From positions 372,001 through 436,000 of the forward strand of contig JAHLKG010000011.1 in NCBI GenBank assembly GCA_025526995.1: DNA of 64,000 nt, given 5' to 3'. Below, piece after piece: positions 9,723-61,189 of this stretch. The translations under genes and the position numbers were made by a program. Source of the stretch: Powellomyces hirtus (lineage: Eukaryota; Chytridiomycota; Chytridiomycetes; Spizellomycetales; Powellomycetaceae). Each line of letters opens with the position of its first letter. The stretch's first letter is position 1. The notes beneath the pieces were generated by a model, which saw nothing but the letters and a program-made list of their open reading frames with translations, did not search any database and was not told the origin of the DNA.

Positions 9723-9788
9723 CTCGCGCTATAATGTCCTCTACCTCAAGTAGCATATCTCTTGTTAATTTACGGTACAGCTCGCTAT

Positions 9789-17926: not shown

Positions 17927-18194
17927 TTAGTTCTCCCCCCCCCTCCTTCTTGTACATCCTTTCACTTGTTGTCTGTTGCTCCTCCGGGGCCTGGCCTTCG
18001 GCCCGTATAATCAAATTCAGTACCACAATCTCATCGCTGTACTTGCCTTCTCATCGCTGTGCTCCCTTGAGCCTTATAGCATTTCGTATGCGTCCGCTGT
18101 GTCCAATGTCACTCGGCTTCCTCCCGGCTATGGTGCTCATGGTAGATGCCCTGCATCACACTTCCCCGTTGGGAAGACCGCCCAACGGTTCCCT

Positions 18195-18982
18195 GGCCAT
18201 CGTCCAACGATGCCGGTATCTCACCTAGTGAGGTCTACTGCCTCGCAGTCTTCGGCTCATCGTCCAATGATTCCGGCATCTCACCCAGCGAGATATGCTG
18301 CCCAGCAGCCTTCGGCCATCGTCCAACAATGCCGGCATCTCACCTCGTGAGGTCTACTGCCTCGCAGTCTTCGGCCATCGTCCAACAATGCCGGCATCTC
18401 ACCTCGTGAGGTCTACTGCCTTGCAGTCTTCGGCTCATCGCCCAGCGATCCCGGCATCTCGCCCAGCGAGGTATGTCGCCCAGCGACCTTCGGCCCATCG
18501 TCAAACAATGCCGGTATCCTGGCCGAAGCCCTTCTCTTCCCCTTCGCGTGGGTATGTACTACGGACATGGTCCCCGCGGGTCTCGAGGTACGCTGCCATG
18601 CAAATCTGGTGCCGGTCACCTTGTATCGGCAGCCGGTCGATGCCCAGCATCACCCTTCTCACCCAGTGAGGTATGCCGCCCAGCGGCCTTTGGCCCATCG
18701 TCAAACGATGCCGGTATCTTGGCCGAAGCCCTTCTCTTCCCCTTCGCGTAGGTATGTACCACGGCCATGGTCCCCGCGGGTCTCGAGGTACGCTGCCATG
18801 CAAATCTGGTGCCGGTCACCTTGCATCGGCAAGCCGTCGGCTCATCGCCCAGCGATCCCGGCATCTCACCCAGTGAGGTATGCTGCCCAGCAGCCTTCGG
18901 CCATCGTCCAACGATGCCGGCATCTCGCCCAGCGAGGTATGCTGCCCAGCAGCCTTCGACCATCGTCCAACGATGCCGAGAT
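18195..18982. repeat. ~59-bp tandem repeats, second copy
   Basis: Same array as at 8935-9722, with the same unit order. Confidence 0.75.
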
Positions 18983-19048
18983 CTCGCGCTATAATGTCCT
19001 CTACCTCAAGTAGCATATCTCTTGTTAATTTACGGTACAGCTCGCTAT

Positions 19049-20099
19049 CTAGGTTCTCTTACGTCGCCTGGCTGCTAGCCTTTGGCCGCGGTCCTCTCCG
19101 GGGTGCTTCCGAAGCCATTCCTCCAGTGCGGTCGTCCCCTTCACATGTGCATACGGCTCCCACGTGTTCTGGGTGCTGTCGTAACCTGTCCACTTGACTA
19201 AGAACTGCTCGGTGTTCCTGTGCCATCTGGCGTTTAGGATCTTGTCCACTTGGTAGGTCTCCTGCCCGTCTTCGTCCTTCTCGGGCTCAGGCGGAGCGGT
19301 GACCTGTCTGTACGGGGTACCATCCGGGTCATGGTAACGTCTCAGAATGCTGACATGAAAGACTGGGTGCAACCCAGTGAACTCCTTGGGTAGTTCGAGC
19401 TTGTAGGTGTCAGGATGCGGGCCCTTGCCGTGTACTGTGAATGGCCCAATCCATTGTTCAGCCAGCTTTTTGTTCCTTGTGGTGACGCTGGTAATCGCGA
19501 TACCCTCACGGTGAAGTAAGACCTTGTCACCCTCTTGGTATGCTTCCGTGTGCTTCTTGCGGTCGTAGTACTTTGCCTGCTGGTCCTGTGCGTCTCGGAG
19601 CCGTTGCTGCACGATGCGACTCACGTCGGCGAATTCCTTAATCCGTCTCTCCACAGCGGTTCGTGCCGATTGCCTTATCATCTCCCCGGGGTTAGGTGCT
19701 ACCCATTGGTTCGGTACCCGGGGAACGCGGCCTAGGTCAATCTCGAAAGGGGATAGTCCCGTCAACGTCTGCGGCGTTCGGTTGTAGTTGTACTCGAGGG
19801 TGGGAAGTAAGCTCTTCCAGTTGGAGCCAGCATAGTCAAGGTAGGAGCCCATGATTCCCTTGATCGTCTTGATGGCGTTCTCCGCCTTGCCATCGGTCTG
19901 TTGGTGTCGTGCCGACGAGAGTTCCTGCTTGACGTCGAGTGCCCGCATAAGGTACCGCCAGAATTCTGATAGCCACTTGGGGTCCCGGTCGCTCACGATG
20001 GTGTGGGGCAACCCCGTGTGGCAAAATGCCTGTTCCAGAAAGAGTTGAGCCGTCTCCTGAGCTGTAGCGTGTAACGTCAAAGGAAGCTTTGATAGTTGG
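19049..20099 (-). pseudogene. G2 integrase-chromodomain, second copy
   Basis: Identical by eye to 9789-10839, with the same missing first catalytic Asp. Confidence 0.85.
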
Positions 20100-22298
20100 T
20101 AGTAATAAATAGTGTGTATTATCGTGTGTTGCAAGGTGACGAGCGGAGAAGGGCGACCAGCGGCTGACAGCTTTATATAATGCGTGTCAGGGTGGCGCAA
20201 AGTAATTTATCCGCGAGGCGCTTTATTGCCTATGAGTCAGGAGTCATGTGTATCACCAATGAACGGGTGGCCAGCCCAAACAAAGGATTGCGTAAAACGT
20301 AATCAGAAAGTCACGGAAAAATATAAGAATATGAGGTTTCCCCGACACCTCCCTCAGACCCTGAGGAAGCATCGTAGATGAATGTGAAGGGGATGAATAG
20401 AAAGGGAGAGCTCATGTTCATTTTAGACTGTTGACGCAGTGCTCAGTTTTTGCGTTGGCGCGCGATGTTTGTATATGCGACAGAGGCGTCCCTCGTGTCG
20501 AAGTGTTTGTGTGTATGCATGTGTGCATATAGGTCGGTTTTTGCGTTGCCGCGCGTGTGATTGTATTTGTAGGTCGGTTCTTGCGTTGCCGCGCATGATG
20601 TAAGGAGAGACGAGGCGAAGCCGTTCCGTCATGGTTGAGTAGTGATAAGGATTTTACCTTTTTCTACTAGTTGGCTGTATCGCCAAAGAGTTTGGATGTG
20701 CTCTGCCCCATTGTTCGTAGGCAGATGTTTCTTGGAGTTCAGACTCAGGTTCCCATGTAGGGTCGGCCCATCCTGTCCATTTGACCAGGAGGTTTTGCTT
20801 ATGACGACGTTCATCGAGAATGTCTTCGACAACCCATTCTTGTTCTCCACGAACTTCGACTGGTTCGGATGGTTGTTGGACTTCACGTTGTGGATATTGG
20901 TCTATTGCGTGAGGGCGTAGGATATCAACGTGAAAGACAGGCCAAATGCCACTAATCTTTGAAGGCGAAAGATCAAGTTCGTAGGTGTCAGGATGATCAC
21001 CTTTGGTGATGACTTTGTAGGGTCCGATCCATATAGTAGAGAATCAAGGGCCTCTTCTTATGTCAACCTCGAGGTCTATACCTTTGCGATTGAGGTCGAC
21101 GAGATCTCCGATTATGTAAGCGATAGGAGTGCGGCCTTTGTCATGTTGTCGAGCATATTCATCTTGTGCTCAACGTAGATTTTCGCGTATGATTTGGGCT
21201 ATCTCTTCTTGTCCCTTATGGTATCTTTCGAGCTCGACCTTGTCGACTCCGCATAAACAAAGTTCTTGTCCTTCTAGGAGTGGATTCCATCCAGGTAAGA
21301 TGATTGTACGACCAAGGTCTACTTCAAATGGTGTCAGGCCTTCATATTCGCTTCTAGGGGCAGTGTTGAAGGCAAACTCGACAAGCGGAAGTAGTTTCTT
21401 CCAGTTGCTTCTATCGTAGATGAGATACTGTTTGAAAATTCTTTTCAGTGTTTGGATGGCTCGTTCGACTTTTCCGTCGGTTTGTTGATGTCAAGCTGTG
21501 GCGAATTCATGCTTGACGCCGAGTAATATATCAAAAGCGAGGAAAAAATCTGAAAGTGCTCGAGGTTCGCGGTCCGTAACAAAGACTTTTGGAGTCCCGA
21601 CGTATTTCCATACTCGATCCAGAAAAACGGCAGCAAGTTCTTTACCACCGATGTTTTTGTTGACAGCTGAAAGAATAGCACGTCCTGATAGATAATCGAT
21701 GCAGGCGAGACATGCTTTGTCTCCGATGTAGAAAATATCAAATCCAATAGTATGCCATCTTCCCAATGGAACAGGAAGTGGTCGTAGAAATCCGTAACGG
21801 CGATGACCCGGTTTGAATTGTCGGCAGGATTTGCATGTTCCGACATACTTCATGACGTCTTGTCTAACGTTAGGCCAATAATAATCAACGAGAATTCGGG
21901 CGAGTGTTTTCTTAACGCCGAGATGACCTCCAGTAGCTAAATCATCGTGAAATTGTTGTAAGACTTTTGGGCGTAGGCTTTCAGGTACGTAAAGGCATCC
22001 TTCATGTCGAGCGATTCCATCTTGGAAAGTATATCGTCGTTCTCTTGCAGTCTTTTCGTGATCAGGTTTCCGACAGATCTCTTCAAGATATTCAGAATAA
22101 GGGTCTGTAGCTAGAGCTTGTTTCCATTCTTTGGTAGAATATGTTGGCGTCGTGCAAAGATCTACCGTTGTGCCGACTATAGCAGGAATGCCATCTATCA
22201 TGTTGTTGATTTGAGTCTGCATATCGATACGTCTTTGACATTCGACACAACGTGGAGCGTAAATAGCACTTTGAGAAAGAATGTCCGCAATATGATTC
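20100..22298 (-). mobile_element. Gypsy G1 3' half, second copy
   Basis: Duplicate of 10840-13038: 3' LTR (20,100-20,347), repeat spacer, and broken RNase H end/integrase/chromodomain frame (20,629-22,298) with the same TGA at 21,496-21,498. This copy is physically continuous with C1-B and the G1 5' half, so it marks the original arrangement. Confidence 0.8.
20629..22298 (-). pseudogene. G1 integrase-chromodomain, second copy
   Basis: Same frames and breaks as 11369-13038. It ends at the TSD GATTC (22,294-22,298) that flanks C1-B. Confidence 0.8.
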
Positions 22299-30190: not shown

Positions 30191-30429
30191 TGTTGGTCTG
30201 AGAGTATCTGAGTAGATAGTTGAGGAAGCTTTAGGGTAGTTGACTGAGCAGAACAACGAAGTAACTTAATCCCGCTCTACTGGAGAAAAAGAGAAAAGTC
30301 CCACCGATATATTAAGTATGGAAGGAAAACTACTTATATCGGAGTTGATCACGTGGGCTCACGTGATTGCATGATACGCCCTGCGATGGCGCAGTTATGA
30401 CTTGATGACAGAGTCTGTACGTGCTAACA
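30191..30429 (-). repeat. 3' LTR of C2
   Basis: 239 bp with TGTT/AACA ends, two CACGTG hexamers (GATCACGTGGGCTCACGTGAT) and TATATTAAG-like AT-rich core. CCCCCACTC next to it is the complement of the polypurine tract. Confidence 0.9.
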
Positions 30430-30611
30430 CCCCCACTCAGACCTGTCAGTCTGGCAGTGAGAGAGTTGCTCTATCTACTTTTACTACACAGCCCCGCGCA
30501 CACCCGCAAACACCCCCATTTATTACATTGTTAAGAATACGAGGAATGGCTAGGGTACGTCTATGAGATCCGCGCAAATGAGGCGTAAGCAATAACTATG
30601 TGCCGGTGTAG

Positions 30612-31234
30612 TTGTCAGGTTCAAGCAAGGCAAAGCAGACGGCGAGAAAGACCGGACCGCCGGTAACCGCTCCTGCAACGACCACAGCTCCTGCTGTGCC
30701 GTCGTCAGTGGTGCCCTCTGCGCCACAGGGAGGCGCACCCGCTGCGGGGTTGTCCCGAGCGGAGATTCGAATGATGTCGGCTGCGTATGCCCGACAGTTC
30801 CACCGCAAGGACCGTCAAGGGTCCTTGAACGTCACATTGAGCAGGCGAAAGACCGGGTGAAAGACCGGGCGAGGTCTGGTACGCCTCTTGGTCGCGCACG
30901 GGCGACCGGGACGCTTGATGGACTGAGGTCCATACTAGAGGACCGGCGGAGCCGGAAGCTGGCGGTTGGGAAGGGCAAGGATACAGCCCAGGCAAAGAAG
31001 AGGACTGCGGACAAGAAGTCTGCAGCGGAGGTGAAGAGGATGTGGGACATCCTGGAGCGTGAAGCTCCATATAATGATGAGGAAGAGGAGGAGGAGGAGG
31101 GGGCAGCCGAGGAGTTGGAGGGACCATCAGGTTCTTCAAGCCGACGCTCACCCTCAAGCGATGAGGATGATGGAGGAGGGGCAGGCCCGTCCTCCTTGGG
31201 AGGCATTGCTTCGGGTTCCGCAATTGCGGTGTAG
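30612..31234 (+). pseudogene. antisense acidic/basic reading frame downstream of C2 pol
   Basis: On the strand opposite C2 pol, between pol and the polypurine tract, an Ala/Pro/Thr-rich segment (GPPVTAPATTTAPAVP) leads to LSRAEIRMMSAAYARQFHRK. A 1-nt frame change near 30,815 leads to a Lys/Arg-rich helix region, KRMWDILEREAP, an eight-residue Glu run and a Ser/Asp-rich tail ending at the TAG 31,232-31,234. Composition suggests a disordered, nuclear-type protein; I do not recognise a family. There is no good ATG; splicing from the ATGGCTAGG/GTACGT near 30,546 to TTGTCAG (30,617) is possible but the phase does not fit. Position mirrors the antisense gene of G2. Confidence 0.4.
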
Positions 31235-31259
31235 ATGCCAAGGTAAGCCAGTGTTGTGA

Positions 31260-33077
31260 GTAATTCTCCTGACATTCAGCAAGTAACACTTGAGCTCGGT
31301 GTGCTTCCGTAGATGCGCCCTCATTGCGTATGCGTTCATCAAATATATGAGTCCCATTCGTAATCCTCAGGACAGTGTCCTTATGTTTCACAGTGGGAAA
31401 AGGCTTCGTAAAGATGTCCGCCAGTTGAACGTCCGTATTGGTGTCGATGATTTCGATAATTTGCTTCGCAAATGAATCGCGTATAGCGTGGTACCAAACG
31501 TCGATGTGTTTGGTGCGTTGGTTGATAGCCTTAGACTGAATCAAGGCCCCGGCGCTCTGATTATCGACATGGAGAGGGACTGGTCGAGATTTGTAATCCG
31601 GTTGGGGTCCCAAAACTTCCGCCAAGAGTTGGCGTAGCCATTTGGCTTTGTTGTGACCGGTACTCGCAGCTATATACTCCGCTTTGGTCGTACTTTGGGC
31701 GGTGCACTTCTGCTTGCTGCTTTTCCACAGAACAGGAAACCCATTGTAAAGGGCCAAAATGCCTGTAGTGGACGTCCGGTCGGTGAGTTCTCCTGCATAA
31801 TCCGCATCCGTGAATACGCGTAGGCCACGCGGATCATTTTGTTTGGATGTAAACTTGAGGGCATAATCGCGGGTACCCTTCAAATAGCAGAAAATGCGCT
31901 TAACATTGTTCCAGTCGGAGTTGGTAGGTGCAGCCACACGTCGCGCAAAGTAACCGACTGCAGTGGCGATATCCCATCGCCATGTGATGGAGGCCCAAGT
32001 GAGAACCCCCACTGCTTCCTGATACATTTTCAGATTCGTGAATGGGGTCGAATCCTCCGGTTGTTGGTTACGCGCTGACACGGCGTACGGAGTGGAGACA
32101 GGATGGCAGTTGCTCATGCCGAATTGTTCGAGAGCGTCGTCGATGTACTTGACATTTGAGATTTTGAGGGTACGAACAGCAGAGTCGAAGTCATATTTGT
32201 AGACGAGACCAAGGTGACTGGTTACGCGACCTTGTTCCGTAAACTTGAACTTCGAATGTAGCTCTTTCTTGCTGGTCGCCAGAATCTCCGGATCCTTCGC
32301 TGCAATGAGCAGATCGTCAACGAAGACAAGAATAAGGACCAAGTTATCGTTCGACGGAGGTGTACGGTCGTCTGTCGCGTACTTGAAAAAGATACACGGG
32401 CATACAGAAACCGCTTCGTAGCCGAGCTTCAACAGTGCAGTCTTCAAGGTCTCATACCAAAGAAGAGGTGATTGCTTCAGGCCGTAGAGAGCTTTCAGTA
32501 GCTTCAGGACCCAATTGCCTTTGGGGTGATCCGGATCTTCGAATCCCTCAAACTGCTCGATATAGATATCCTTATCAATATCACTGTTCAGGAAGGCAGT
32601 AACAGCGTCCATACTGTGGATGTCCAGCCCGTGCTGGACACAATACGCCAAGAAGAGGCGTAGCGCTGTGAATGGTAGCGTAGGTGAATATGTATCACCA
32701 AAGTCGCGACCGGGTTGTTGAGAGAAGCCTTGAGCTACTGCTCTGGCTTTGAACTTGTTAAAAGTGCCATCGGGATTGACCTTTGTTCGAAAGACCCATG
32801 TTGTGCCGATCACGCGCTTGTTACGTGGACGCTTCGTGGGTTCCCATGTGCCGTTGTCGACCAGGGATTGGTACTCAATGCGTGCAGCCTTGAGAAATTC
32901 CTCCTTCTGAGGTGTTTTCATTGCTTGCTTCCATGTCATGGTGTCTTCGTTGATCGTTGCTTGAGTCCGCGCGCGGGCGGCGTATGCAGCAATAGGGTCA
33001 TTTCGACGTGTGCCGACATTGTACGCGGCTACTTGATTCTCCCAGTCATCCAATGCGGTAGTATCGAGTAGTGAAAG
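31260..33077 (-). pseudogene. C2 reverse transcriptase-RNase H
   Basis: Same frame as the integrase-chromodomain part, separated only by a TGA (33,078-33,080). RT shows TWKQAMKTPQKEEFLKA, TTWVFRTKVNPDG, SMDAVTAFLNSDI, LYGLKQSP and the catalytic FVDDLLIA. RNase H shows TDADYAGELTDRTSTTG, KAEYIAAS and HVDNQSAGALI with QRTKHIDVWYH and LADIFTKP. The frame runs on to 30,705 as Pro-rich translation of the antisense ORF, which I regard as artefact; the true C-terminus is probably near 31,300-31,380. Confidence 0.85.
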
Positions 33078-33826
33078 TCAGGACTCCCACGTAGGTTCTT
33101 GATATCCCTCCCACTTAACCAAGTACTCTTTCGTGTGCACCTTACTGCGGCACTCGTCGATAATCGCCTCCACGGCGTATTCGTTGTCATCCTCCTGACT
33201 CTCCTCATCTAGGAGATCAAGATGTGCTGGATCCTGCTGATATTTGGGTTCGAGTCCCAAGTCTTCTTTGAAGATCACGTCTCGTGACACTTCGACCTTG
33301 TCAGTGACAGGATCCCATACCAAATACCCCTTGGTACCTGTGGGTTGAGCATAGCCTACCAAGTAAGCCTTCTTCGCTCGATTCCCCATTTTATCGCGTC
33401 CTTTGCTTGTTAGAACGGAATACGCCACGCAACCGATACGCCAAAGATGGGCGACATCAGGACGCCGGCCAAATAAGATCTCATGCGGTGTCTTCTTGTT
33501 GATGCGGTTGTACGTAAGGGAATAGATGTATCCAGCCGCTACCAGTAGAGCAGGCCAGAATCTTCGAGGTAGTTTCGTATCCGCAAAGGTGGCGCGGACC
33601 CTGTCCAGCGCCGTGCGATGCCATTGTTCGGCAATCCCGTTTTGCTGACTCGAATAGGCCGCGGACTCTTGGTGAGTGATACCATTCTTCAATAAGTACT
33701 CTAGAACCTTGCCAAAGTATTCGGTGCCTCGATCCGTACGTAGGATCTTGATTTGTCGGTCAGTCTGTTTCTCGATCCAAGCCTTGTAGATGAGAAACTT
33801 GTCGAGTATGACTGCTGAGTCCTTTG
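33078..33826 (-). pseudogene. C2 integrase second half and chromodomain
   Basis: Continues the integrase interrupted by G4: KDSAVILDKFLIYK, second Asp in ILRTDRGTEYF, and Glu in QNGIAEQWH. After VSRDVIFKED comes an acidic linker and a chromodomain at about 33,188-33,081 (YAVEAIIDEC...EYLVKWEGYQEPTWES), which ends at an in-frame TGA. With the TTTG target duplicate removed, the codons either side of G4 read straight through (FPIPS then KDSAV). Confidence 0.85.
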
Positions 33827-34260
33827 TCTGAAAGGGTCCTGGTCGGGTGGGGTTATAGACGCTGTATACGCTATACGGCGTCTTGAGTACCGACGTGGCT
33901 TTCGAGTGAGTTTGGCTATGTGCCGGGGTGTACTAGTATGCCCAGTGCTAAGGGCAAGAGTAGAAGTGCTGCTCTGTATGAATACCTCTATCCTTAGTAC
34001 TAGACTACACGCCTCTGCATATAGACCTAGGAGAATTGTCCTCCAGTGTACCGCAGTAGTGGGGTGTATACAACTCTGTTCTTTCTCCGGGAGGACCCTG
34101 GGGTTCACCTGTTTATATACTCATGCGTTGCCATAGCAGAGAATGCGGCACCTGCCGTCCAGTCTCCGTACATCTGGCGTCACACACGAGAGTGATACAA
34201 AACACGTGTACTAAACTAACTAACTCTACTAAAGGACCCTTAAATACCGTCCCTTTCACA
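33827..34260 (-). repeat. 3' LTR of G4
   Basis: 434 bp; contains long pyrimidine/purine segments and a TATATA near 34,113. A C/T-rich stretch CATCCTCCCCCCTTTTT lies just inside, the complement of a polypurine tract. Confidence 0.9.
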
Positions 34261-34346
34261 TCCTCCCCCCTTTTTGACCTTCCTGCAACTAAGTCTCACG
34301 TCCAGTCCCGTAAGAACCTCGTCAGCCGTAGTTTTTTAGCGCAGAT

Positions 34347-35156
34347 CTAAAAACGTTTCTTTCCACGTCTAGCTCTTCCAATTGCGGGCCGCTCCGTCAA
34401 TTCCATTTCCTCAGGCTCGGGCCTAGGAGGAAAGATGGTACTCCGGTTGATTTTGTGCGTCTTGGGGACGGGCTTTGGAAGTTGCATCGAGCCATCAGCT
34501 GCCGGAGTCTGGAGGCCACCGATGGGCCCATAACGTTCGAGGTCCTTCCATTGCCGGAGGCGGTACCCGGTGTCATGGGCTTTGTAAAACGTCTCTTGCT
34601 CGGATACGACTTGAGTGTACCGTTCCTCCCGGAGCAATTCCAACCGAGTTACTTCATGCCGCATTCGTTCGAACCGGGCGATGACTAGGTCGCCAGGACG
34701 GGTACGCACCCTAATCTCTTGGTCGGGGAGAATGAGGTCGCCACCACGTCCGGGAGTGAAGTTACCGTGGACCGCCATGATAGCCCACTTGTGGTTGTTA
34801 ACATCAAAGTGGGAGCCTGATATTGCATTGAAGTTGATCGTCATTAGGTTTCTGGGTGCGTTGGGGGTGAGCATGGCATCGCGGATTTGTTTGGGAGCAT
34901 CGGCAATCCGGCGTCGCCAGTTCGTACCCTGCACGTTGTCTTTGATAGCTGCCATGCGTGCGTAGAAGCCACATTGCTCGTTCGCCATCTTGGCGTGGTC
35001 CCATAGGAAGAATCCGGCTGCTGCATTGTTGGGAATGACGGGCAAGCGTGACATTGAGCCTTGCATGACCCAGGCTCCACCGTGGAGGATGGCTCCCGTT
35101 TTAGTGTCGCGGGCATTCTGGATCGTTCTAGACCATTCTGGACCATTCCAGACCAT
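34347..35156 (-). CDS. 2OG-Fe(II) dioxygenase-like (TET/JBP-type) cargo of G4
   Basis: An intact frame of 269 residues from the ATG at 35,156 (open upstream to 35,294). Its core has the double-stranded beta-helix dioxygenase layout: H116-x-D118 in NAISGSHFDVNNHKW, then AVHGNFTPGRGGDLILPD, a PGDLVIARF turn, the distal His167 in MRHEVTR, and an Arg in REERYTQVV that could hold 2-oxoglutarate. H-x-D...H binds Fe(II) in this superfamily. The GGDLILPD...PGD pattern resembles TET/JBP-like enzymes that oxidise 5-methylcytosine or thymine and are expanded in mushrooms; substrate here is inference. It follows the chromodomain and precedes the 3' LTR, the usual place for accessory genes. The C-terminal 100 residues are basic. 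It is less damaged than gag-pol beside it. Other 2OG oxygenases remain possible. Confidence 0.65.
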   Translation of the reverse strand: MVWNGPEWSRTIQNARDTKTGAILHGGAWVMQGSMSRLPVIPNNAAAGFFLWDHAKMANEQCGFYARMAAIKDNVQGTNWRRRIADAPKQIRDAMLTPNAPRNLMTINFNAISGSHFDVNNHKWAIMAVHGNFTPGRGGDLILPDQEIRVRTRPGDLVIARFERMRHEVTRLELLREERYTQVVSEQETFYKAHDTGYRLRQWKDLERYGPIGGLQTPAADGSMQLPKPVPKTHKINRSTIFPPRPEPEEMELTERPAIGRARRGKKRF

Positions 35157-35197
35157 TCTAGACACAAGTGGATGTCCTCCCACATGTCCCGTATGCT

Positions 35198-35424
35198 CTA
35201 AGTCCTCCCAGAGGCACCCACAGGTAGATTCCAACAGCGTCGTAGGTTCTCCCGTGTTTCCCAGGTGTTGTGCTTTGCCGGCCAGTATTTCCACTTGACA
35301 AGAAACTCCCGACCATTGTTGGTGTCGCGGTGGTTGACAGTCTTCTCAACCTCATAAGTGTCTTCCTCCTCAATTCCGTCAATTTCATGGTCGGAATTTT
35401 CGTCTGGGTCAATTCCCCGTCGGG
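35198..35424 (-). pseudogene. G4 chromodomain
   Basis: YEVEKTVNHRDTNNGREFLVKW-type chromodomain ending HNTWETRENLR. It lies in a different frame from integrase (frame change near 35,450) and its frame ends at 35,198 within the start of the dioxygenase frame. It would target integration to histone-marked chromatin. Confidence 0.75.
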
Positions 35425-36225
35425 TTAGTTCTTGCAAAGTTCCATATGCTTTGGCCTGAATGGTTTGCGGGTTAGCTTGTTGGCTGTCTCTGCGAGTTTG
35501 AGTTCCTCCTCGAGTGTTTCCTGCTGTGTTAGTGAGGGGATTTCGTCGGAATCGACAGGTCGCCTTTCGGTCCAGTACCGCAGTCGGCGCACGTGGGCTT
35601 GGCGTAGGATGACTTCTGTAGGGCTGAGGGTTTCCAGTAGTTTGAAGGTGGGTCCGTTGCAGGATATAATGCGGTGAGGACCGGTCCATTTAACTGCCAT
35701 TTTTTCCACCGCTGTTTTGTTTTCTTTCCGAGCGGACTTGGTAAATTGGGGTACGGCCAGCCAGACCTTGTCTCCAATGCGGAAACCGTAGTCCTTCATA
35801 TGAGAGACCCTGTCATACCAGGTCTTCTGTGTCTTCTGGGCGCTCCTAATGTTTTCCCTTGCTAGCGCCCAGGCTTTTTGTAGTCGGAGTTGTGTCTCCG
35901 CTCTGTAGTCACGCATCTCAAGGACCATTGGTGCTTCATCCAGGTTGTCAGTGGGCGTGTTTGTTTGATGTAGTAAGTCCTTTGGCAGCCGAGGGTCTCG
36001 TCCAAACATGAGGAAGAAAGGGGACTCATGTGTGGATTGGTGCATTGCCGTGCGGTAAGCAAGCAAGTTGTATGGCAATTGCGTGTCCCAATCGTCGTGT
36101 GAGTACTTGTTCACGTACGTTTGCAGCATTCTTACCAGGGTGCCATTGAACCTTTCTGTTAAGCCGTCAGCCTCTGGGTGGTACGGCGAGGTGAAAGCGG
36201 GGTGCGTCCCAAGCAAACTCAGGAT
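35425..36225 (-). pseudogene. G4 integrase C-terminal half
   Basis: Same frame as the upstream pol, separated by the TGA 36,226-36,228. It starts ILSLLGTHPAFTSPYHPEAD with the catalytic Glu in DGLTERFNGTLV, then the typical LPYNLLAYRTAMHQST, ESPFFLMFGRDPRLP, and a C-terminal beta-barrel (FRIGDKVWLAVP, KWTGPHRIISCNG, QAHVRRLRYW). Confidence 0.85.
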
Positions 36226-39200
36226 TCAACGTTGCAAGTCACTGATAAAGGGTTGCCCTCTGTCGGTGACAATACTTCCTGGTATGCCGAAGCGACAGAA
36301 TACATCCTCTACAAGCCGTCTTGACACGCGGTTTGCTGTGATGTCGGGGACTGCAAACGCTTCGACCCATTTAGTCATGTAGTCCGTCAGTACGATGATG
36401 TAGTTGTTGCCTCTTGCTGTTGTTGGCAACTTCCCAACGATGTCGATACCGATCTTCTCCCATGGGTCGTTGACGGCAATTGGTGTTAATGGTCCGACTC
36501 GGTTCTTTGGTAATGGTTTGTGTTCTGAGCATTCTGCACATGACTTGACGTGGTTGACTACGTCTGAGTGCCAACCTGGCCACCAATAAGACTCTTGCAC
36601 TTTCTGAAGAGTTCTGTCTCTCCCTAGGTGCCCGGCTAGTAAGTCATCGTGGCATGACTCAATCGCTTTACGTCGTAGGCCGTCTGGGACCAGTAATTGT
36701 TGAAAGATGCGTGGTCGGAATCCTGTTTTGTCGAATCGGTGAATTCGGTAGAGTATGTCTTCAAGTAGGATAAGGCGGTGTGCTGTCTTCCTGATGTTGT
36801 CCTGCTGTTCCTTGGTACCGTCGAGTGTTCCATCAACAAGGAAATGGTAGGCTGCAGCAAAGTCTTTGTCTTTTTGCTGCTGTTGCGGGATGTCATCAGC
36901 AAGCTTCTGGACTAACGGAACACTTGTCGTCAGAAACGCTTCCTTGTCTGGCTCCTCTTTGTTGTAGGATATGACTTCTACCCCACTCGCGGTTTCAAAA
37001 GCGGTCTGCTCGGTTTGAGTGGAAATCGTACGGGATTTCGGTGGGTCATTGTGAAGACGTGACAAAAAGTCCGGCGTCCTATGAGCCAGGGATTTTCCAG
37101 GTTTGTGCACCATTTTGAAGTCGCAATCGGCTAAGGCATAGCTCCAGCAGGCCCATTTCCCTGATAAGTCGCCGTTCTTTCGTAGCGGCAGCAGAGGCGA
37201 GTGATCACTTTCCACTGTGAAGTTGTTGCCCCATAGGTAAGAGTCGAGGGTTTGAATAGCCCAGACGACTGCTAATCCTTCTCGTTCTGTGTTAGAGTAG
37301 CGAGTCTCGGGGTCTGTCAGGGACTTACTCAAAAATGCCATTGGAATTCTCGCATTGTCTTTAATCTTATACAGCGCTGCTCCTAGTCCTCGCTTGCTTG
37401 CATCGACGGAGAGTATCATGGGTATGTCCTTCTCAGGGAACTCCAGTATAGCTGCCTCTTTTATTGCCGTCTTCAGTTCGTCGAAAGCGCTTTGCTCTTC
37501 AGCCGTCCATCGCCATTGGACATCATGTTTCGTCAATTCATACAACGGCCGCGCGATGGTACCATAGTTTTCAATGTGTTTGTGATGGAAGACGCACATA
37601 CCCAAAAAGGTTTGTACATCTGATACGGTTTTCGGAACGCCGATGGCTTGTATCCCGTCGACTTTTGCTGGGTCTACTGCTACGCCGCGGCCATTGACAA
37701 TCTTCCCCAGGAACTTCAATTCACCCTGTGCAAAGTGGCATTTCTCCAGCTTAATCCTCAGTCCAGCGTCGACTATCCGTTCTAACACACGACTTATGTG
37801 TGCCATGTGTTCCTCGAATGTGTCAGAGTATATGATGATGTCGTCCACATAGACCAGGCAGAATTGGTATTTCAGGCCCGCTAACACGGCATCCATAACT
37901 CGTTGAAATGTCGGAGGGGAGTTCTTCAAGCCGAAGGGAAGTTTGTTGTATTCAAATAGGCTGTGCGGCGTGCAGAATGCCGTGTAGTGCTTGTGTTCTT
38001 CCTTGATGGGAATTTGCCAGAATCCCCAGCGTAGGTCCATTGTTGTGAAGTATCGTTTCCCCGCCAGGTAGTCGATAGTGGAGTCGACTCGGGGTAGCGG
38101 ATACCTGTCTGGAATGGTGTGTTCGTTTAATTCTCGATAGTCTGTGACGAACCGTAGCCCTCCCCCTGGTTTCTTGACTAATGAAACCGGGGCTGCCCAT
38201 GGCGATCGGGATGGTCGGATGACGTTGTCCTTCAGCATGGTGTTCATGTGGTCTCTGAGTAGTTCCTCTTTTACCATTCCAGCTCTCCTTGGGGGGTAAC
38301 TGATTGGCCGGGTTCCTTCCATGATGGCCATGTGGTGTTTGTATGGAATGTTTGGTTTTGCGGGGATTCTAGGGTCAAATGCTTCGGCATGGCGCATTAA
38401 TGTTTGCTTGAGCATGGCTTGTTTGGTTGGGTCGAGGTGGGGTAGTTCCAATGCCTCTAGTACTTCCTTTCCTGATGTGTGAGCCCGTTCGTAAGACTGT
38501 CCATCTTCTGATGGGGTGGCCGGTTCGGGAAGGCTGTCGGTGGCATGTAGGCCTTCTTGTGCATCTTTTCCCCATGCAGCTAATTCCCCAATCTCTTCTT
38601 GCCCTAAACCTTCTCCTTGGCCGGTGTCCTTGTAAGGTTTCTTCTGGTTTGGTCGTATGGGTTCGTTGTACCTGGTTTTGTGGGTTTCCTCCTCTGCGTT
38701 GACGATGAACACCGTTTTCCGGGTCGTCTTCTCCTTTGGGTGTGGTGGAGAGCAGCTTGTAGGTCGTGGTAGTCTTTGTTGGGAAGTTTCTGGTAGTAGG
38801 TCCTGTTGCATCAGCCAGTCATTCACACCGTTGGGTTCCGTGAGATGCACTTCCGGTACTCTCTCAATGGCGAAGTCACGGTCTTCAGAATCGACCCATC
38901 CAAGTAATTGTCCTTTCCTTAGCTTCCTTCCATGACTTGTAAGGTTGGCGACCGGGGTGAGCCATGTACCGTCCCAGTGTGGTTTTACAAGCTGGTTGGG
39001 GCACCAAATACCGTTGCTCTGCCTGCTCTTACTGCCGGTGACCAGGTAGCATTCATTGGGGCTCAACTCTTGCTCAGGTCTAGCGGCGACATGCGTGACG
39101 TGGTGGGCGGGCAGATGTACTTCTTCCTCGGCGACGTATACGGGAACGCGAATGCTACCGTAGTGGCGGCTCCCGTCTGTCGTGTATTGCCCAAATGCAG

Positions 39201-39560
39201 TTTTCATGGGTGTCTTTTTCCGTGGTCCGTCTGGTTTACTTTCATATTCCAATTGGTCGAACTCGAGGTCCAGTTTGGTTTTGTATTCCTTCAGGCCTGG
39301 TATCCCTATGAGTACTGGTCGGCCGAGGCCTGGGACAATGCTGAATCTCATGTTCCGTGGTTGGGTTCCGTGAACGCCAATTTCGAGGTCAAGGTAAAGC
39401 CAATTCCAGTCAGGTTGCTTGTATGCTGCCACACGTGCACCCTGGTTCTTGCTTGGAGTACCTTCAGGAAGCTGTCTGATATGCAGTTGATGGTGGCGGC
39501 CGTGTCTGCAATTAGACCGTCCATTTCGACTCCGTTGATTTTGCCATAGATCTGTGCCAC
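36226..39560 (-). pseudogene. G4 protease-RT-RNase H-integrase
   Basis: Protease lies at about 39,560-39,440 (MDGLIADTAATINCISD; active site D-T-A). A 1-nt frame change then leads to a 1,068-residue open frame. In that frame: RT about 400-590 with WAAPVSLVKKPGGG, TMDLRWGFWQI and YVDD at 528-531; RNase H starts SVDASKRGLGAALY near 676 with the ESDH motif near 741; integrase zinc residues H928, H935, C965, C968; catalytic D997 and D1057. It stops at a TGA after SDLQR, in the middle of the integrase core. Confidence 0.9.
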
Positions 39561-39606
39561 AGTGAACATTGCATGTTTGAGGTCGTCTTCTGCATGGGCG
39601 GGTGTC

Positions 39607-40019
39607 TCATTTTCCCTTGTCTGCCTTGGCAACGTATGCTTCAGCTGAGGCTTGCCCTTTGTTTGTTGTGTCTGCTTGTGCGGAAGCCTTCTCGACTTCC
39701 ACAATCCATGTAGTTTCGTTGTACCGTTTGTGCCATCCGTGTGGGCGGTGGCCGAATAATTCTCTTCGTCCATTCTCATATGCTAGTGACCGGTTGAGGA
39801 AGCTTCCCGTGACAGGAGTGTCATCCAATTCGGTATAGAATAATGAAGTCAGTGGTAGCTCATCAGTTCCTCTGAGTCGCCATGCTGCTTGGGGAATTCC
39901 GTCTCTGTCTGTTGGGCATGCCCGGGGCTTCGGCGCGTCGAAACCAATCTTCTTGCTGTTTCTTGGTTGTGTAACTGCTTCTGCAGCAGCACTCTCCCCC
40001 CTTTTTGTGGTGGGTTGTG
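39607..40019 (-). other. G4 pol linker, frames disrupted
   Basis: Between the Dam-like frame stop and protease. One frame (39,828-39,607) encodes GSFLNRSLAYENGRRELFGH followed by a Lys/Ala-rich stretch, without a known domain. Frame changes on both sides suggest small indels in an originally continuous pol. Confidence 0.4.
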
Positions 40020-41030
40020 CTAGGATTGCATCGGGGGCAAACGTGGGAGAAGGTGTACAGTTCGTGAGAACACCTCCGCTGTGTTGGCCGGGGTTGTATC
40101 TCGAATTTCGATGATCTCATTGAAGGGGATGCGCATTCCTTGAGTTATTCCTGCGTAGCGGTCCTCTGGTGGTATGTGAGGAATGGTGCGTGGTCCATGA
40201 CGGTTTTCGGACCACGCACGCTTGAGTTCAGTAATGAACCGTTGTTGAGTTTTGACTTCGCCAGATATTCGCCACGCGGCGGTGTATGGCCATGGTGGTT
40301 CGTTGACGATGCCGGAGCCATCAGCTCGGGCACCTTGTCGGGCGAAAAGTTCACGGGAATGCTTGAGCAATTTTGGGTAATCGACGCACATTCCGAGTAG
40401 TTGTTGATACCAGAGGGAGTTTTTCCATACTGGTGTAATGAGTGTCATGGTGGCTCCGTCGGCACTGACTTTGGCGAGGACCTGCAGTATGAGCTCCCAC
40501 AGTGGGTTAGCCCAGCAATTCTCGGTACTCCAGTCATGCGTAAACGCATTTCGGCATACTGCTGAGGGGTCAGCGTATGCAATTGTGCAATAGCGGTAGA
40601 TCAGACGGTTCTGTTTTGTGGCAAACAGATCAATCGTATGGCCTTGAGGTCCTCCCCACCGTCCCATGTTGAGTTGGGCAAAAACGTCAGGATGTAATTG
40701 CCAGTCGTTTCGGTCGTAGGAGGCGATGTAAACTTCAGACTTAGGGAACTTGTTCTCGGAACACGCCGTGTTTGTTTTTTCGGTTGTTAACTCAGGCGCC
40801 AGGTACTTGTTCTCCTCAGGCATCGTGTTTGGATTTTCTATTTTTTTCGTTGTTTTGTCAGTGGTTAGTGTGTCGACAGACACAGGGTGGAGCGTGGGCG
40901 GCGTAGGAGTGTGACGGCATTCGGGTGTCCCAATGTCGTCATTCTCGAATGCGGCATCGTTCTGAATGTCGTCTGACCATTTCGCCGCCGGACCCAGGCG
41001 GTCCACTAGGTCCGGGGAGCAAAATCCTTC
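40020..41030 (-). CDS. Dam-like methyltransferase-type domain of G4 pol
   Basis: An open frame of about 330 residues overlapping the end of gag. After a 95-residue polar linker, residues about 99-205 read DWQLHPDVFAQLN, GHTIDLFATKQNR, a NAFTHDW segment, WANPLWELILQVL and DGATMTLITPVWKNSLWY. This matches the pattern of the Dam-like region of DIRS/Ngaro retrotransposons and phage-type N6-adenine methyltransferases: W-x-L-P near the start, DLFA (SAM-loop position), N-P-[PL]-[YFW] catalytic motif and a terminal P-x-W...WY. The motif here is NPLW rather than NPPY/NPPF, so activity is doubtful. Placement upstream of protease in a Gypsy element is unusual. The frame is -1 to gag; the GGATTTTG stretch near 41,025 is a possible slip site. 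Confidence 0.55.
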   Translation of the reverse strand, partial: EGFCSPDLVDRLGPAAKWSDDIQNDAAFENDDIGTPECRHTPTPPTLHPVSVDTLTTDKTTKKIENPNTMPEENKYLAPELTTEKTNTACSENKFPKSEVYIASYDRNDWQLHPDVFAQLNMGRWGGPQGHTIDLFATKQNRLIYRYCTIAYADPSAVCRNAFTHDWSTENCWANPLWELILQVLAKVSADGATMTLITPVWKNSLWYQQLLGMCVDYPKLLKHSRELFARQGARADGSGIVNEPPWPYTAAWRISGEVKTQQRFITELKRAWSENRHGPRTIPHIPPEDRYAGITQGMRIPFNEIIEIRDTTPANTAEVFSRTVHLLPRLPPMQS

Positions 41031-42670
41031 CGTGGGTGCGGGCAGCTTTGAACGAAGTGCCCCGTATCACCGCAGTTGTAGCATTTGCCAGCGGAGTTCG
41101 TTACCCCATTCGGTTCGGCGGGAGCTGCAATCTGAGGCAGAGTAGGGGTTGTCAAAGGCTTTTGCACTTGCAACAATTGACCCAGTAAGGCTGTCATCTG
41201 CTGCAAGGTTTCTTCCATGGACGGTTTCGGCTGTTGGTGCTGGTGGCTGTTGCGATGTGGCGGTTGCGCAGTGGCAGTGTACGGTTGAGTTTGGGGTCTG
41301 CTCCATGCTCCTCCTTGGTGCCAGGCGTCCTCCCTCCGGTATGGTTGTTCCTCGCGGCGATAGGGCTGCTGGGTCCGCCGTCTGTCCATGAGAAACACCT
41401 CTATGTCTTCGTGTTCCTCCTGCGTCAATGCCATTGCTGACTCACCATCTTCTGCAAGGAAGATTCTTTTGCCGGGATTCTTACGGCTGGCGCTGGTTAG
41501 GCGGAGTTCCTGTTTAATCGAGGCCAATTCCTTCCCTAGGGATGCTGTCGTCTCTTGCGCGGCTGACCGAGCTGCTTCTTCGGCAATCTTCTTGAGGTCT
41601 GATTCTTGGATGCGTCCGCGAGAAGACGAATCTCCGTCATCCATTCCTTGTTCATACCGTTCATAGACCTTGTCGACTAGGTCGTCAAACGTGACGGTAG
41701 CATCGTCCCAGCGTTTGCCGTTAAATAGGATGGACTTCATGGACGGTTTCTAATGACCTTCTAGGAAAGCGTACTTCTTTTCTTGGTCACTCAATTGCGA
41801 TACTGTGGGTAGTGCTTTGTTCAAGGACCGGAGCCGAATGGCGAAAGCTCTAGATGTTTCCCGCGGTTTCTTTTTGAGCGTAAGTACTGCCATGCGTCGG
41901 TCCATGCTTGTCAGCTTGGTGCCGAACCATGCAATGAGTGCTTCGAGGAATTCGTCAAATGTTTCGTAGCGGTCAACTTCCGAATAGAGCCAGGTGAGGG
42001 CAGTGCCAGTGAATTGCTTGTTAGAGAGGTACTTGAGAGCATTGTCCCGATTGGTAAGGTGGCCTTGGCACACTGCCATTTCTACTTCTCCCCGCCGGCG
42101 GGAGCAGAATTCTTGTACATCCACATCTTTGCCGTCCAGTTTCTTGTTGTCCGGTAATTCTAGTGTCCAGAGGGCTTGGGAGAGATCTCTCATGAAGCTC
42201 TGGTTGTGTACGGGTTGTGCCATACTGATGGACTCGGTGTAGAAGACGAACTGCTCGTTTACGTCGTTTTTCGGGAATTCGAGATGTCGGGCGGGTGTGT
42301 GGAAGGTTTCGGTTTCTTCCTCGTTGGTTGCGGTCTGTCTAGCGGGCGTGCTAGGAGGTTGGTTCGGCTGCTCTTGAGCCGGGAAGTCTCCGGGTAATTT
42401 GTGGTGCGTTGTCGGCCGTTCGGTGGCCGATGATCTTGCTTTGCGCTGCAATTCAGATGCGGCAGTAGGTAGGCCCTTTTTGGGCTTCCGTGGTGCTCTG
42501 GTAAGAGCGTCTGAGGTCTTGGCTTGTGTAGATGCTCGTAGAGAGCGGGTAAATGCTGAATGCTCCAGATTGGAGTCAGGCCGCAATTGAAGCGGGATGG
42601 TGTGTACGTTTCCAGAGATGCCGTTGGCCTCCTGCTTAAGACGTCTTCTCTTTAACGTGTGAGTCTGCAC
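41006..42670 (-). pseudogene. G4 Gag
   Basis: Capsid region with TALTWLYSEVDRYETFDEFL, a conserved WFGTKLTS and the RLRSLNKALP segment, interrupted by an in-frame TAG (near 41,748) between FLEGH and KPSMKSILF, where a sense codon is expected. The C-terminal part has a CCHC zinc knuckle (CYNCGDTGHFVQSC) and ends at a TAG at 41,006-41,008. No convincing ATG is seen near the 5' LTR; the frame is open from about 42,670. Confidence 0.85.
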
Positions 42671-42678
42671 TTCTTCTC

Positions 42679-42693
42679 GGCTGAGCCACCAAA
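42679..42693 (-). promoter_or_regulatory. G4 primer-binding site
   Basis: Directly after the 5' LTR on the minus strand comes TTTGGTGGCTCAGCC; TGGTGGCTCAGCC could pair with a tRNA 3' end of the form GGCTGAGCCACCA. The tRNA was not identified. This differs from the half-tRNA site of the Copia elements. Confidence 0.5.
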
Positions 42694-43127
42694 TGTGAAA
42701 GGGTCCTGGTTGGGTGGGGTTATAGACGCTGTATACGCTATACGGCGTCTTGAGTACCGACGTGGCTTTCGAGTGAGTTCGGCTATGTGCCGGGGTGTAC
42801 TAGTATGCCCAGTGCTAAGGGCAAGAGTAGAAGTGCTGCTCTGTATGAATACCTCTATCCTTAGTACTAGACTACACGCCTCTGCATATAGACCTAGGAG
42901 AATTGTCCTCCAGTGTACCGCAGTAGTGGGGTGTATACAACTCTGTTCTTTCTCCAGGAGGACCCTGGGGTCCACCTGTTTATATACTCATGCGTTGCCA
43001 TAGCAGAGAATGTGGCACCTGCCGTCCAGTCTCCATACATCTGGCGTCACACACGAGAGTGATACAAAACACGTGTACTAAACTAACTAACTCTACTAAA
43101 GGACCCTTAAATACCGTCCCTTTCACA
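42694..43127 (-). repeat. 5' LTR of G4
   Basis: 434 bp, nearly identical to 33,827-34,260, with intact TGTGAAAGGG and CCCTTTCACA ends. Confidence 0.95.
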
Positions 43128-45427
43128 TTTGAAGGAATAGGGAAAACAGTCACGTATCTGGATGCGTGTTCAATGAACTCCAGCGAATAGCGTGATCCTT
43201 CGTAACCAGGGATGCGAAATGGTCCTTGTAGGTCTGAATGAATCAGCTCACAGATCTCCCTGGCTTCAACATTACGATGGGAGAATGGAAGACGAGCGGC
43301 TTTTCCTAGCACACAGGCTTCACAATCTTTGAAGTCACTGAGATCCCCCACTACGGACCAACCGTCCGTAACCGATGCCATCTTCTCCAGGACGTGTTTG
43401 CCAACGTGTCCAAGACGAGCATGAGCGAGTGTAGGAGAGACTTCAACAGTGCATGCTTCTGAATCCGTCCACAGACTTTCAGACAGCAGTGTACCTTGCA
43501 GGTAATACGCATTGTTGCGGCGTACGCCTTTGGCGATTTCTTTGCCGTCTCGCGTGAAAATGACGTCTCCATTCGACTTGAAGAGCACGTCAACGTCTTG
43601 ATCGTTGCATTTCGCTACCGATACGAAATCTTGTTGTAGTCCTGGCACATGCAAGACTCCGCCCAACTCGAGCGGATTCGGATAGTCGTTAACTTCTACT
43701 CGTACCGTACTTCAAACTGTAGAGGGGAGTGATGTTTTGTCAGCAAGCATAACAGCTCTGACATCACTGTATACGGTTGAGTGATCCAAGGTCGCTTTGT
43801 GAGGTGTCATGTGGTCCGTAGCGCCAGAGTCGATGAGGGCTTCATACGGTTGTTCTTGGCGGACCCAAACGTGTAATGCTTCCACAGCATTTGTGCTAAC
43901 AGCACCATCAGACGACTGCTTCGTCTTGTTCTTCTCCATCTCGGATTTGAACTTCTTTAACACTTCGCACTCCTGTGTTCGGTGTTTAGGGTCTCCACAG
44001 GCCCAACAACCCGACTTTTGGGTTTGGCCTTTGTTTGATGGAGTAGATTCCTTGTCCTTCTTGCCGTTCGTTGACTTCTCCCCGTGGTTCTTGCTACCCT
44101 TTTGTTTCTTAGAGGCGTCAGTGTGTGCGGCACCTGGTCGCGTATCCGTTGAGGTCCCGCTAGGTTTCTTAGCCATGTTGGCGGCGATCCTGGATGCAGC
44201 GGCCTGTAAACTGCTCAAATCAGTTATGTTTTCTTCATTAGCCTGAACCAAGGCCGCGAGTTCTGGTGTTAGCGCGTTGATGAAGTAATCCTGAAGGACG
44301 TAATCCGGTGTCTTCGGCAGAGAAAATGCCAGCATGTCGAACAAAGTGATGTATTCATCCATGCGGCCTTTGGGACGCAATTCCCGTAATTTCTGCAGCA
44401 AATCCATAGTGTGGTTTCGTGGCGCGAACCGCGCCAGAAGGGCGGACCTGAGACCGGTGTTGGTTCTGCCTAAATCAACGTCTTCAAAGTCATGCCACGT
44501 CGTAATTTTGTTCCTTTTATTTGGTGAGAGCGACTGCCACCAAGTGTATGCCCATCCTGTGAGTTTTGTAGCCACAAAATCCACGTGAAACTCGGGCGGA
44601 ACCATTTCGTACTTCACAACCGTCTCAATCTTGTCGATGAACGTTTGAAGTTTGACCATATTGGCTTCCCCATTGTAAGATCCAATATCTTTCAGCGTTC
44701 TATCCACGAAAGCCTTCGCACCTCGACTGTCGACGATTTTGGTCGTCACGCTGTGTATGCTCGATGTCGGTGATGTGGGGCGGCGTTCGAATGGAGAACG
44801 TTGGTGTTCCTGTTGAGCTCCAATCTCCTGATTGTACTCTGTCCACGGTGCAGCGAACCCGTCGTTGCGAGTGGGTGATGGTGTGCGTACGCGCCGTTGC
44901 GCCGTACGTACCTGAGGGTTGACCGGGATGTTCGTATCCTGATCCATGCGCCATTTCATTTGGAGCATTTCCGTTAGTTGGGCTAGAGAATTCTCAAGCC
45001 TATCTATCCTATCCACGTCCGCCTCACGCAGGCGGACATGCACGGTGTTCGCTGATTCCCCACTTGGGAATGCCGCTGGAGTACTGTAGTTGATCGTTCT
45101 GTGATCATCTGTACTGCTTGATAGGGGACGGGTATCGACCTTGCCATCGCGTCGGTCGACGTTTCAGGTACGCCCTTCCAATGCGTCGTCGCCCTCGTTG
45201 GCGTTGACGCTCAAAGGCGTTGGCTCTGCCGGTGTATCGTTACCGGCAGATTTCCCTCCATTGTCTGGTGATGTCCATTCACCAGGCACTCGTGCGCTCT
45301 TCTTAGCGGCACGTTCTACGGCTTGTTGTAGCGTATTGGACCCTGGGGTCTGCCGACCCGTTAGGCGTCTTAACATACTACGAGTGTACCGGGGGCTCGT
45401 TTCGTTGCCTACCATTTCAGGGCTCAT
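43128..45427 (-). pseudogene. C2 Gag-protease-integrase first half
   Basis: The first frame starts at an ATG lying inside the primer-binding site (45,427). In-frame TGA codons occur at 45,164-45,166 and 43,712-43,714, with no frameshift between. Gag shows FVDRTLKDIGSYNGEANMV, LTGWAYTWWQSL and a zinc knuckle CWACGDPKHRTQEC; protease has ALIDSGATDHMT. After the second stop come GGVLHVPGLQQDFVSVAK, the zinc motif ARLGHVGKHV...CEACVLGK and the first integrase Asp in LIHSDLQGPF, ending at FPIPS where G4 begins. If the first TGA is genuine, translation could start at the ATG at 45,030 (MHVRLREADVDR). Confidence 0.85.
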
Positions 45428-45431
45428 AACC

Positions 45432-45671
45432 TGTTGGTCTGAGAGTATCTGAGTAGATGATTGAGGACGCTTTAGGGTAGTTGACTGAGCAGAACAACGA
45501 AGTAACTTAATCCCGCTCTTATTGGAGAAAAAGAGAAAAGTCCCACCAATATATTAAGTATGGAAGGAAAACTACTTATATCGGAGTTGATCACGTGGGC
45601 TCACGTGATCGCGTGATACGCCCTGCGATGGCGCAGTTGTGACTCGATGACAGAGTCTGTACGTGCTAACA
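45432..45671 (-). repeat. 5' LTR of C2
   Basis: 240 bp, TGTTAGCACG...GACCAACA on the minus strand, with paired CACGTG motifs. GGTTATGAGCCC (45,431-45,420) follows as primer-binding site. Confidence 0.95.
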
Positions 45672-60840: not shown

Positions 60841-61189
60841 GATTTTCCAGCTCAAGCGCTTGTCGAAATCCGTTGTTGGCGCCTCATTGGCTTCATGGTT
60901 CGAATCAGCGACTCACAAGGCGCTTCCGATGTTCAAAGATTGGCGCCTGTGTGGATTCGAATCTGCCATTCCGGTTTGAACCAGTGGTTCGAAAGATGGA
61001 ATTTCGTCACAACTTTCATGTCAACCTCAACTCCCAAGTGATGAACTCCCGTAGTCACCTCTCAGGCAAAACTCTCACGTCAATTCTGGCACATCTTCCA
61101 CGGCATTTCAACCCCTCTACAACCCCCCCCCCCCCTCCCCTCAAATGCTGGTGAGTGTTCTGGCCTTGTTCGCTTTGTCGCTGGCGCTC

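Follow-up and report, generated by a model that had tools for sequence, protein, structure and literature searches.

A chromodomain Gypsy lineage of Powellomyces hirtus with a Dam-like domain and a PHD-linked TET/JBP-like dioxygenase

The Gypsy element and its two additional domains

A Gypsy element was found at positions 33827-43127, on the minus strand, of a stretch of 64,000 nucleotides of Powellomyces hirtus DNA (contig JAHLKG010000011.1, positions 372,001 to 436,000; assembly GCA_025526995.1), and this whole stretch is referred to here as the window. A sequence-only reading made beforehand had described the element as a Gypsy retrotransposon with a chromodomain, and this is borne out by comparison of its long terminal repeats (LTRs) and by Pfam, which identify it as a chromodomain Ty3/Gypsy LTR retrotransposon, or chromovirus. 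Comparison of copies shows the predicted architecture of the lineage to which it belongs: a Dam-like domain is placed at the N-terminus of pol, and a third open reading frame (ORF) encodes an ING-type PHD finger followed by a TET/JBP-like 2-oxoglutarate/Fe(II) dioxygenase. The window copy represents this lineage in a defective form that has lost the PHD finger.

The genome examined comprises 29.3 Mb in 60 contigs, denoted here by C-numbers, with the window copy located on C11. Other copies with the same gene order had been proposed as a check, and both domains were indeed found in the same order and on the same strand in three copies, those of C11, C1 and C15; the remaining places found have been rearranged or contain just one of the two domains. 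The LTRs of the C1 copy were located at C1:1828595-1829024 and 1838710-1839141; this copy has its own duplication, GTAG, and its flanks are similar to the LTR of the Copia element. Gag and pol are unbroken in neither the window copy nor the C1 copy, and in the latter a single open frame of 566 amino acids spans the protease region as well as the Dam-like domain.

The constraint on both additional domains is similar to that on the replication enzymes, which at the level of sequence shows purifying selection. Between the window and C1 copies, the ratio of nonsynonymous to synonymous substitution rates (dN/dS) is 0.22 for the Dam-like domain and 0.25 for the dioxygenase (258 codons compared, 34350-35126), as compared with 0.23 for the reverse transcriptase (RT), 0.18 for the RNase H-integrase part, 0.14 for the C-terminal part of the integrase and 0.26 for the segment before the RT; the value for the C-terminal part of gag, 0.75, comes from only 18 changes. 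For the dioxygenase, C1 compared with four other places (C4 twice, C35 and C8) gives 0.19-0.22 at dS values of 0.36-0.94, and for the Dam-like domain the comparison with three places (C4 twice and C10) gives 0.15 at dS values of 0.58-1.05. The PHD-containing N-terminal part has a dN/dS of 0.21 against both C4 and C35; the C4 and C35 copies are near-identical and these comparisons are therefore not independent. Two points count against this. The PHD part is less constrained when compared with the decayed C15 copy (0.29-0.47), and CpG decay inflates dS and therefore lowers dN/dS, an effect which would be felt by all segments alike.

Within the window copy, the LTRs and coding parts of which are on the minus strand, the 5' LTR (42694-43127, 434 nt, TG...CA) and the 3' LTR (33827-34260, 434 nt) have 7 differences over 434 aligned positions, and a target-site duplication TTTG was read directly at 33823-33826 on the left and 43128-43131 on the right. 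A weak gag capsid part (41750-42670; PNMA E 0.013, Ty3_capsid E 0.095) is followed by the C-terminal part of gag with a CCHC zinc knuckle (41006-41740; PF00098, E 2.5e-5). The Dam-like methyltransferase domain (40020-41006), in a frame other than that of gag, sits between the zinc knuckle and a weak retroviral-type protease (39348-39779; gag-asp_proteas E 0.053). The RT, the RNase H and the zinc-binding domain and core of the integrase share the main pol ORF (36226-39432), with E-values of 1.5e-35 for RVT_1, 9.4e-29 for RT_RNaseH_2 and 4.7e-21 for Integrase_H2C2, and with a match of the integrase core, rve, at E 4.3e-6 (27.4 bits, below its cut-off of 32.6). An in-frame stop divides this ORF from the C-terminal part of the integrase (35425-36216), and the chromodomain ORF lies at 35198-35689 (PF00385, E 1.8e-13). 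Apart from the weakness of the protease itself, the LTRs, the order of protease, RT, RNase H and integrase, the chromodomain after the integrase and the short duplication are all those of a Ty3/Gypsy chromovirus. The dioxygenase-like ORF (34347-35294) is located downstream of the chromodomain, between pol and the 3' LTR. The copy is broken, with in-frame stops between the two gag ORFs and inside the integrase, and with at least one stop between the Dam-like and protease ORFs.

Identity of the dioxygenase and of the Dam-like domain

The motifs HxD, GGDLILPD, PGD and a distal His, which had been reported downstream of the chromodomain, were all recovered, together with an Arg, in the retained part of the dioxygenase (34347-35119). 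The description of this ORF as intact does not hold, as it is open but truncated. Its counterpart in the C1 copy has 563 amino acids, and alignment with that copy shows that the 1,390 bp missing here (L021 3384-4773), which are replaced by a 117-bp stretch of dispersed repeat (35120-35236), encode the ING-type PHD finger and the N-terminal region of the dioxygenase. Of the ORF as listed, about 56 residues at the N-terminus are foreign, being mostly dispersed repeat and for the rest chromodomain-side sequence in another frame, so that translation did not originally begin at the GTG at 35294. About 108 of the 127 genome matches to the listed ORF were set aside since they fall within residues 6-63, where the repeat and its surroundings lie, and are not dioxygenases.

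The PHD finger was missed in the sequence-only reading and is visible only in fuller copies. In the C1 ORF it occupies approximately residues 95-153 (E 2.7e-10 to png2, 2.1e-8 to ING4; PF00628, E 1.5e-5), and both the C4HC3 pattern and the similarity to ING proteins were observed in this copy and in P0003. The residues at what we take to be the methyl-lysine cage positions of ING2 are retained in the C1 finger, with Phe replacing Tyr. The PHD-containing part was also found in two C4 copies, in C35 and in C15. P0003, a protein of 469 amino acids from a 2-kb contig of another dataset, has the identical layout of PHD finger and dioxygenase, with 47% identity over 99% of the searched region. It was found with the C1 ORF as query; the truncated dioxygenase of the window, used by itself as query, gave no matches in the protein search, probably because full-length relatives exceed the length limits of the search. 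No relatives of either the Dam-like or the dioxygenase protein were found in the viral contigs searched.

The likeness of the dioxygenase to TET/JBP enzymes is drawn from motifs and profile comparison, not from structure. Among the genome copies read, HxD is present in seven of eight, the distal His in ten of ten and the Arg in eight of ten, and all of them occur in P0003; this count includes one of the six C8/C28 places and the near-identical C4 and C35 copies. A profile of the dioxygenase was compared by hhalign with a profile of five Tet_JBP-like proteins of the same genome, giving a score of 41.5 (E 5.6e-5) over 187 columns in a register that aligns HxD, the glycine of the PGD turn, the distal His and the Arg. 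This score exceeds those of all 200 column shuffles (best 33.4), and the reversed profile scores 13.3. The E. coli controls AlkB, YbiX and TauD score 18.3, 23.4 and 16.7, with the best of 60 shuffles each at 22.1, 21.0 and 19.1, and HemB, Mqo and OmpC score 17.9, 14.8 and 16.7 respectively; the controls are single sequences and the Tet_JBP-like side is a five-row profile, so that the comparison between families is fair only in part. Tet_JBP is also the sole dioxygenase family that Pfam returned, weakly, for P0003 or the C1 ORF at E up to 10. AlkB and other 2-oxoglutarate-dependent families are disfavoured by the Pfam and hhalign results.

Apart from the unequal form of the controls, several results count against this assignment. 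The match of PF12851 (Tet_JBP) to P0003, over the catalytic half, reaches only E 0.064 and 12.9 bits (cut-off 34.9), and Pfam gave no Tet_JBP match for the C1 ORF or the window ORF. The search of the genome with Tet_JBP found five weak places (E 0.0017-0.019), none over the cut-off, and the same search gave a match below the cut-off in one of 14 control genomes, that of E. coli. Two of the genome's Tet_JBP-like proteins scanned singly matched Tet_JBP (E 9.2e-4 and 6.9e-4) and nothing else; these reference proteins, too, score below the Pfam cut-off and have no TET match in the PDB. YbiX, a 2-oxoglutarate enzyme, scores slightly above its best shuffle, whereas AlkB and TauD do not. Sequence searches of the PDB returned PHD fingers and chance matches but no dioxygenase, a profile search of the PDB with the dioxygenase alignment had no matches, and AlphaFold, given a two-row alignment of P0003 and the window dioxygenase, produced no usable fold (predicted local distance difference test, pLDDT, 31). 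Substrate choice in CcTET has been tied to Gly331 and Asp337, the AG type, and the PE type has HxE, according to the available parts of PMC12730594 (Kojima 2025). By ungapped counting from HxD the two positions are Asn and Met here, so the enzyme is not of the AG type, and with HxD in place of HxE it is not of the PE type either.

The multi-copy genes L041-L044 (C23, C6, C1 and C26) were among the five weak places. The four genes are Tet_JBP-like and near-identical to one another (92-97% to the first), and related ORFs lie alongside L041, L042 and L044, without a Pfam match in the one tested. These genes are perhaps borne by DNA transposons.

The Dam-like ORF of the window does contain DLFAT, WANPLW and TPVW..WY upstream of the protease, as had been read. 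The proposed resemblance to Dam is upheld in so far as PF05869 matches the ORF (E 6e-4), and qualified by a score of 20.0 bits, under the curated cut-off of 28.1, and by the altered motif of this copy. The C1 copy (E 1.9e-5, 24.8 bits) and P0001, a 62% identical homologue from another record (E 9.1e-5, 22.6 bits), fall below the same cut-off. In a PHROG scan, the best match was a DNA methyltransferase family for both the window ORF (E 0.0024) and P0001 (E 0.027), and a family of unknown function for the Dam-like frame of C1 (E 0.0035). The motif (D/N/S)PP(Y/F/W) is catalytic, NPPW being the form expected of an N6-adenine methyltransferase. NPPW is present in P0001 and in four of the eight genome copies read (C1, both C4 copies and C17), and is altered in the other four (NPLW in the window, NLPW in C10, NLPR in C15 and TLSW in C6); the DIRS-type relative P0002 reads FPPF at this motif. 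The window copy looks catalytically impaired because NPLW replaces NPPW, and the lineage appears to retain a plausible active site. The scores below the cut-off and the altered motifs tell against an active Dam-like enzyme. AlphaFold gave no usable fold for the domain (pLDDT 39, two-row alignment of the window domain and P0001).

A second Dam-like protein was found in the genome, at L047:814-2910 on the plus strand (C30, about 120128-122224). In this intron-free ORF of 698 amino acids, a C5 cytosine DNA methylase (PF00145, E 3e-36) is fused with a Dam-like domain (PF05869, E 5e-5, below the cut-off).

CpG decay and genomic surroundings

Changes from C to T at CpG exceed those at other C positions in all of the 14 copy comparisons made (eight for the dioxygenase, six for the Dam-like domain), by 1.8 to 4.5 times; near-identical copies are included and these are not 14 independent events. 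At positions which are C in both the window and C1 copies, the fraction of T is 0.15-0.39 at CpG and 0.04-0.17 at other C. The window and C1 segments have an observed/expected CpG ratio of about 1.0. Of the nine older segments, seven have ratios of 0.34-0.55 and two are exceptions, the dioxygenase copy of C4 (0.79) and the Dam-like copy of C10 (0.93); among dioxygenase segments, three old ones have 0.34-0.43. The C5 DNA methylase family has 14 matches at nine places in the genome, all above the curated cut-off. Cytosine methylation of old copies is likely because of this CpG-biased decay and these methylase matches. The suggestion that the element acts on its own silencing fits both observations. 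In the window copy itself neither enzyme is intact.

Tandem units of about 6,639 bp at L026-L029 (C28 and C8) also contain the 3' part of the element in decayed form, and the CpG observed/expected ratio of L026 and L028 is 0.32. The dispersed repeat that takes the place of the lost sequence in the dioxygenase ORF is about 122 bp long (window 35117-35240) and contains four 10-bp units such as TTCTAGACCA. It has 41 matches among those listed (40 of 345 candidates scored), on 16 contigs including C3, C1, C8, C2, C17 and C28. Where there are several per contig they are clustered (C3 1075-1104 kb, C1 1169-1214 kb, C8 384-445 kb and C17 76-111 kb), which resembles what centromere-linked repeats would show.

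The Gypsy element is inserted within a Copia element on the minus strand (30191-45671; LTRs 30191-30429 and 45432-45671), which it splits. The integrase ORF of the Copia element (33078-33932) ends with a chromodomain (PF00385, E 9.9e-7), a domain that is unusual in Copia. Elsewhere in the window, the long ORFs of 4161-13037 return 9,260 bases further on (13421-22297) as a direct duplication, in which pieces of Copia and Gypsy elements are included. An open frame of 623 amino acids at 61155-63026 on the plus strand has no Pfam matches, and the adjoining long minus-strand ORFs (57482-60912) look like a DNA transposase, yet are also without a Pfam match.

Proposed roles and comparison with known systems

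The pairing of a writer-like and an eraser-like domain in one Gypsy lineage is real and above chance. On present sequence evidence we lean slightly towards the view that the lineage has captured a PHD-guided reader-eraser which counters silencing, along with a Dam-like domain. The host would methylate the element at CpG, and the PHD finger would bring the PHD-dioxygenase to active chromatin, methylated at lysine 4 of histone H3, at new or expressed copies. The dioxygenase might then oxidise methylated bases there and so delay silencing and CpG decay. The Dam-like domain may ride in the gag-pol particle and methylate adenine of new cDNA, or may merely bind the cDNA. A fuller version would have the element equipped with a complete self-epigenetics kit, consisting of an N6-methyladenine writer on fresh cDNA, two histone-mark readers (the chromodomain and the ING-type PHD finger) and a 5-methylcytosine eraser on active copies, by which it evades both silencing and CpG decay; this we regard as rather unlikely.

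The chances are only a little short of even that the Dam-like domain is a non-catalytic relic, a nucleic-acid-binding or structural part of Gag-Pol. Its Dam scores are weak, the motif is altered in half of the eight genome copies read and is FPPF in the DIRS-type P0002, and the domain adjoins the nucleocapsid zinc knuckle. Set against this are the NPPW of C1, of two C4 copies, of C17 and of P0001, and dN/dS values of 0.15-0.22, which are though compatible with a structural role as well. That the Dam-like segment and the PHD-dioxygenase should both be passengers, pieces of host or viral genes caught by chance in one or a few copies, is very improbable: dN/dS remains low up to a dS of about 1, divergent copies agree in order, and homologues exist in other records (P0001 at 62% for the Dam-like domain and P0003 at 47% for PHD finger and dioxygenase), even if just three genome copies have both domains in a consistent order, the window copy is without the PHD finger and without some of the dioxygenase region, and the PHD region is less constrained in C15. 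Chance capture of the two domains is thus a candidate disfavoured by dN/dS.

Two other substrates may be considered for the dioxygenase. It could act on RNA and strip methyl marks from the transcripts of the element, as an AlkB-type ORF of an orchid Gypsy element does in vitro; such a Gypsy element with an additional 2-oxoglutarate dioxygenase ORF that demethylates N6-methyladenosine (m6A) in RNA is on record (PMC9289625, in its available parts), and a position between pol and LTR does not discriminate DNA from RNA. We nevertheless consider an RNA substrate improbable, as Pfam gave no AlkB (PF13532) match for the C1 ORF or P0003 at E up to 10, the hhalign score with E. coli AlkB is at the level of chance (18.3, with shuffles up to 22.1), and the PHD finger indicates chromatin rather than RNA. 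To a similarly small degree we credit a role in target choice, in which the PHD-dioxygenase steers integration together with the integrase chromodomain and the oxygenase acts on a protein or histone. The element does have two chromatin-reader modules, the chromodomain and the ING-type PHD finger, and its copies on C8, C28, C17 and C6 lie amid clustered copies of the 122-bp repeat, whereas the profile similarity is TET/JBP-like, and known TET/JBP enzymes act on bases (PMC12730594, in the parts available).

With a Dam-like domain in the same element, the lineage would be a natural test case for whether the writing of one base mark and the erasure of a second lie within the reach of a retrotransposon. 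Among the best-ranked papers of the open-licence literature, by title and start of abstract, we found no LTR retrotransposon with TET/JBP and no Gypsy element with both kinds of enzyme. Systems which share one or other of these features are known. The orchid Ty3/Gypsy element with an AlkB RNA demethylase likewise combines Gypsy with an additional 2-oxoglutarate/Fe(II) dioxygenase ORF, but its enzyme is of the AlkB family and acts on m6A RNA, and neither a PHD finger nor a Dam-like domain is mentioned in the available portions of that paper (PMC9289625). The window element is not an AlkB-carrying Gypsy element, as neither Pfam (PF13532) nor hhalign gave a match to AlkB. KnitGypsy-Dnmt3 of the charophyte K. 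nitens similarly has a DNA methyltransferase in a Gypsy pol under purifying selection, with Ka/Ks < 0.2 as given in the parts of PMC5890265 available; its enzyme is a C5 cytosine methyltransferase and not Dam-like, and the words TET and demethyl- are absent from PMC5890265.

DIRS retrotransposons likewise have a Dam-like (PF05869) domain in pol, and as described in the accessible text of PMC3783388 they have a tyrosine recombinase and are without a protease or DDE integrase. The window element has LTRs and a DDE integrase and does not belong to DIRS; in the DIRS-type P0002 the methyltransferase follows the RT and RNase H, whereas here it is upstream of the protease. The proposed use of the dioxygenase has a parallel in TET+ fungal DNA transposons (Kyakuja, Zisupton, Plavaka, EnSpm, hAT, Helitron and others), which are also mobile carriers of TET/JBP-type enzymes and are thought to counter methylation; the survey that describes them reports, in its available parts, no retrotransposon encoding TET/JBP (Kojima 2025, PMC12730594). 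A Gypsy lineage with a selected TET/JBP-like enzyme would, if confirmed, end this exception of the retrotransposons, and through its fusion with an ING-type PHD finger the enzyme would become one that can be directed to active chromatin. The known TET+ fungal elements are, in that same text, DNA transposons and Helitrons, whereas in the present case an LTR retrotransposon carries the enzyme, which is in addition fused to an ING-type PHD finger.

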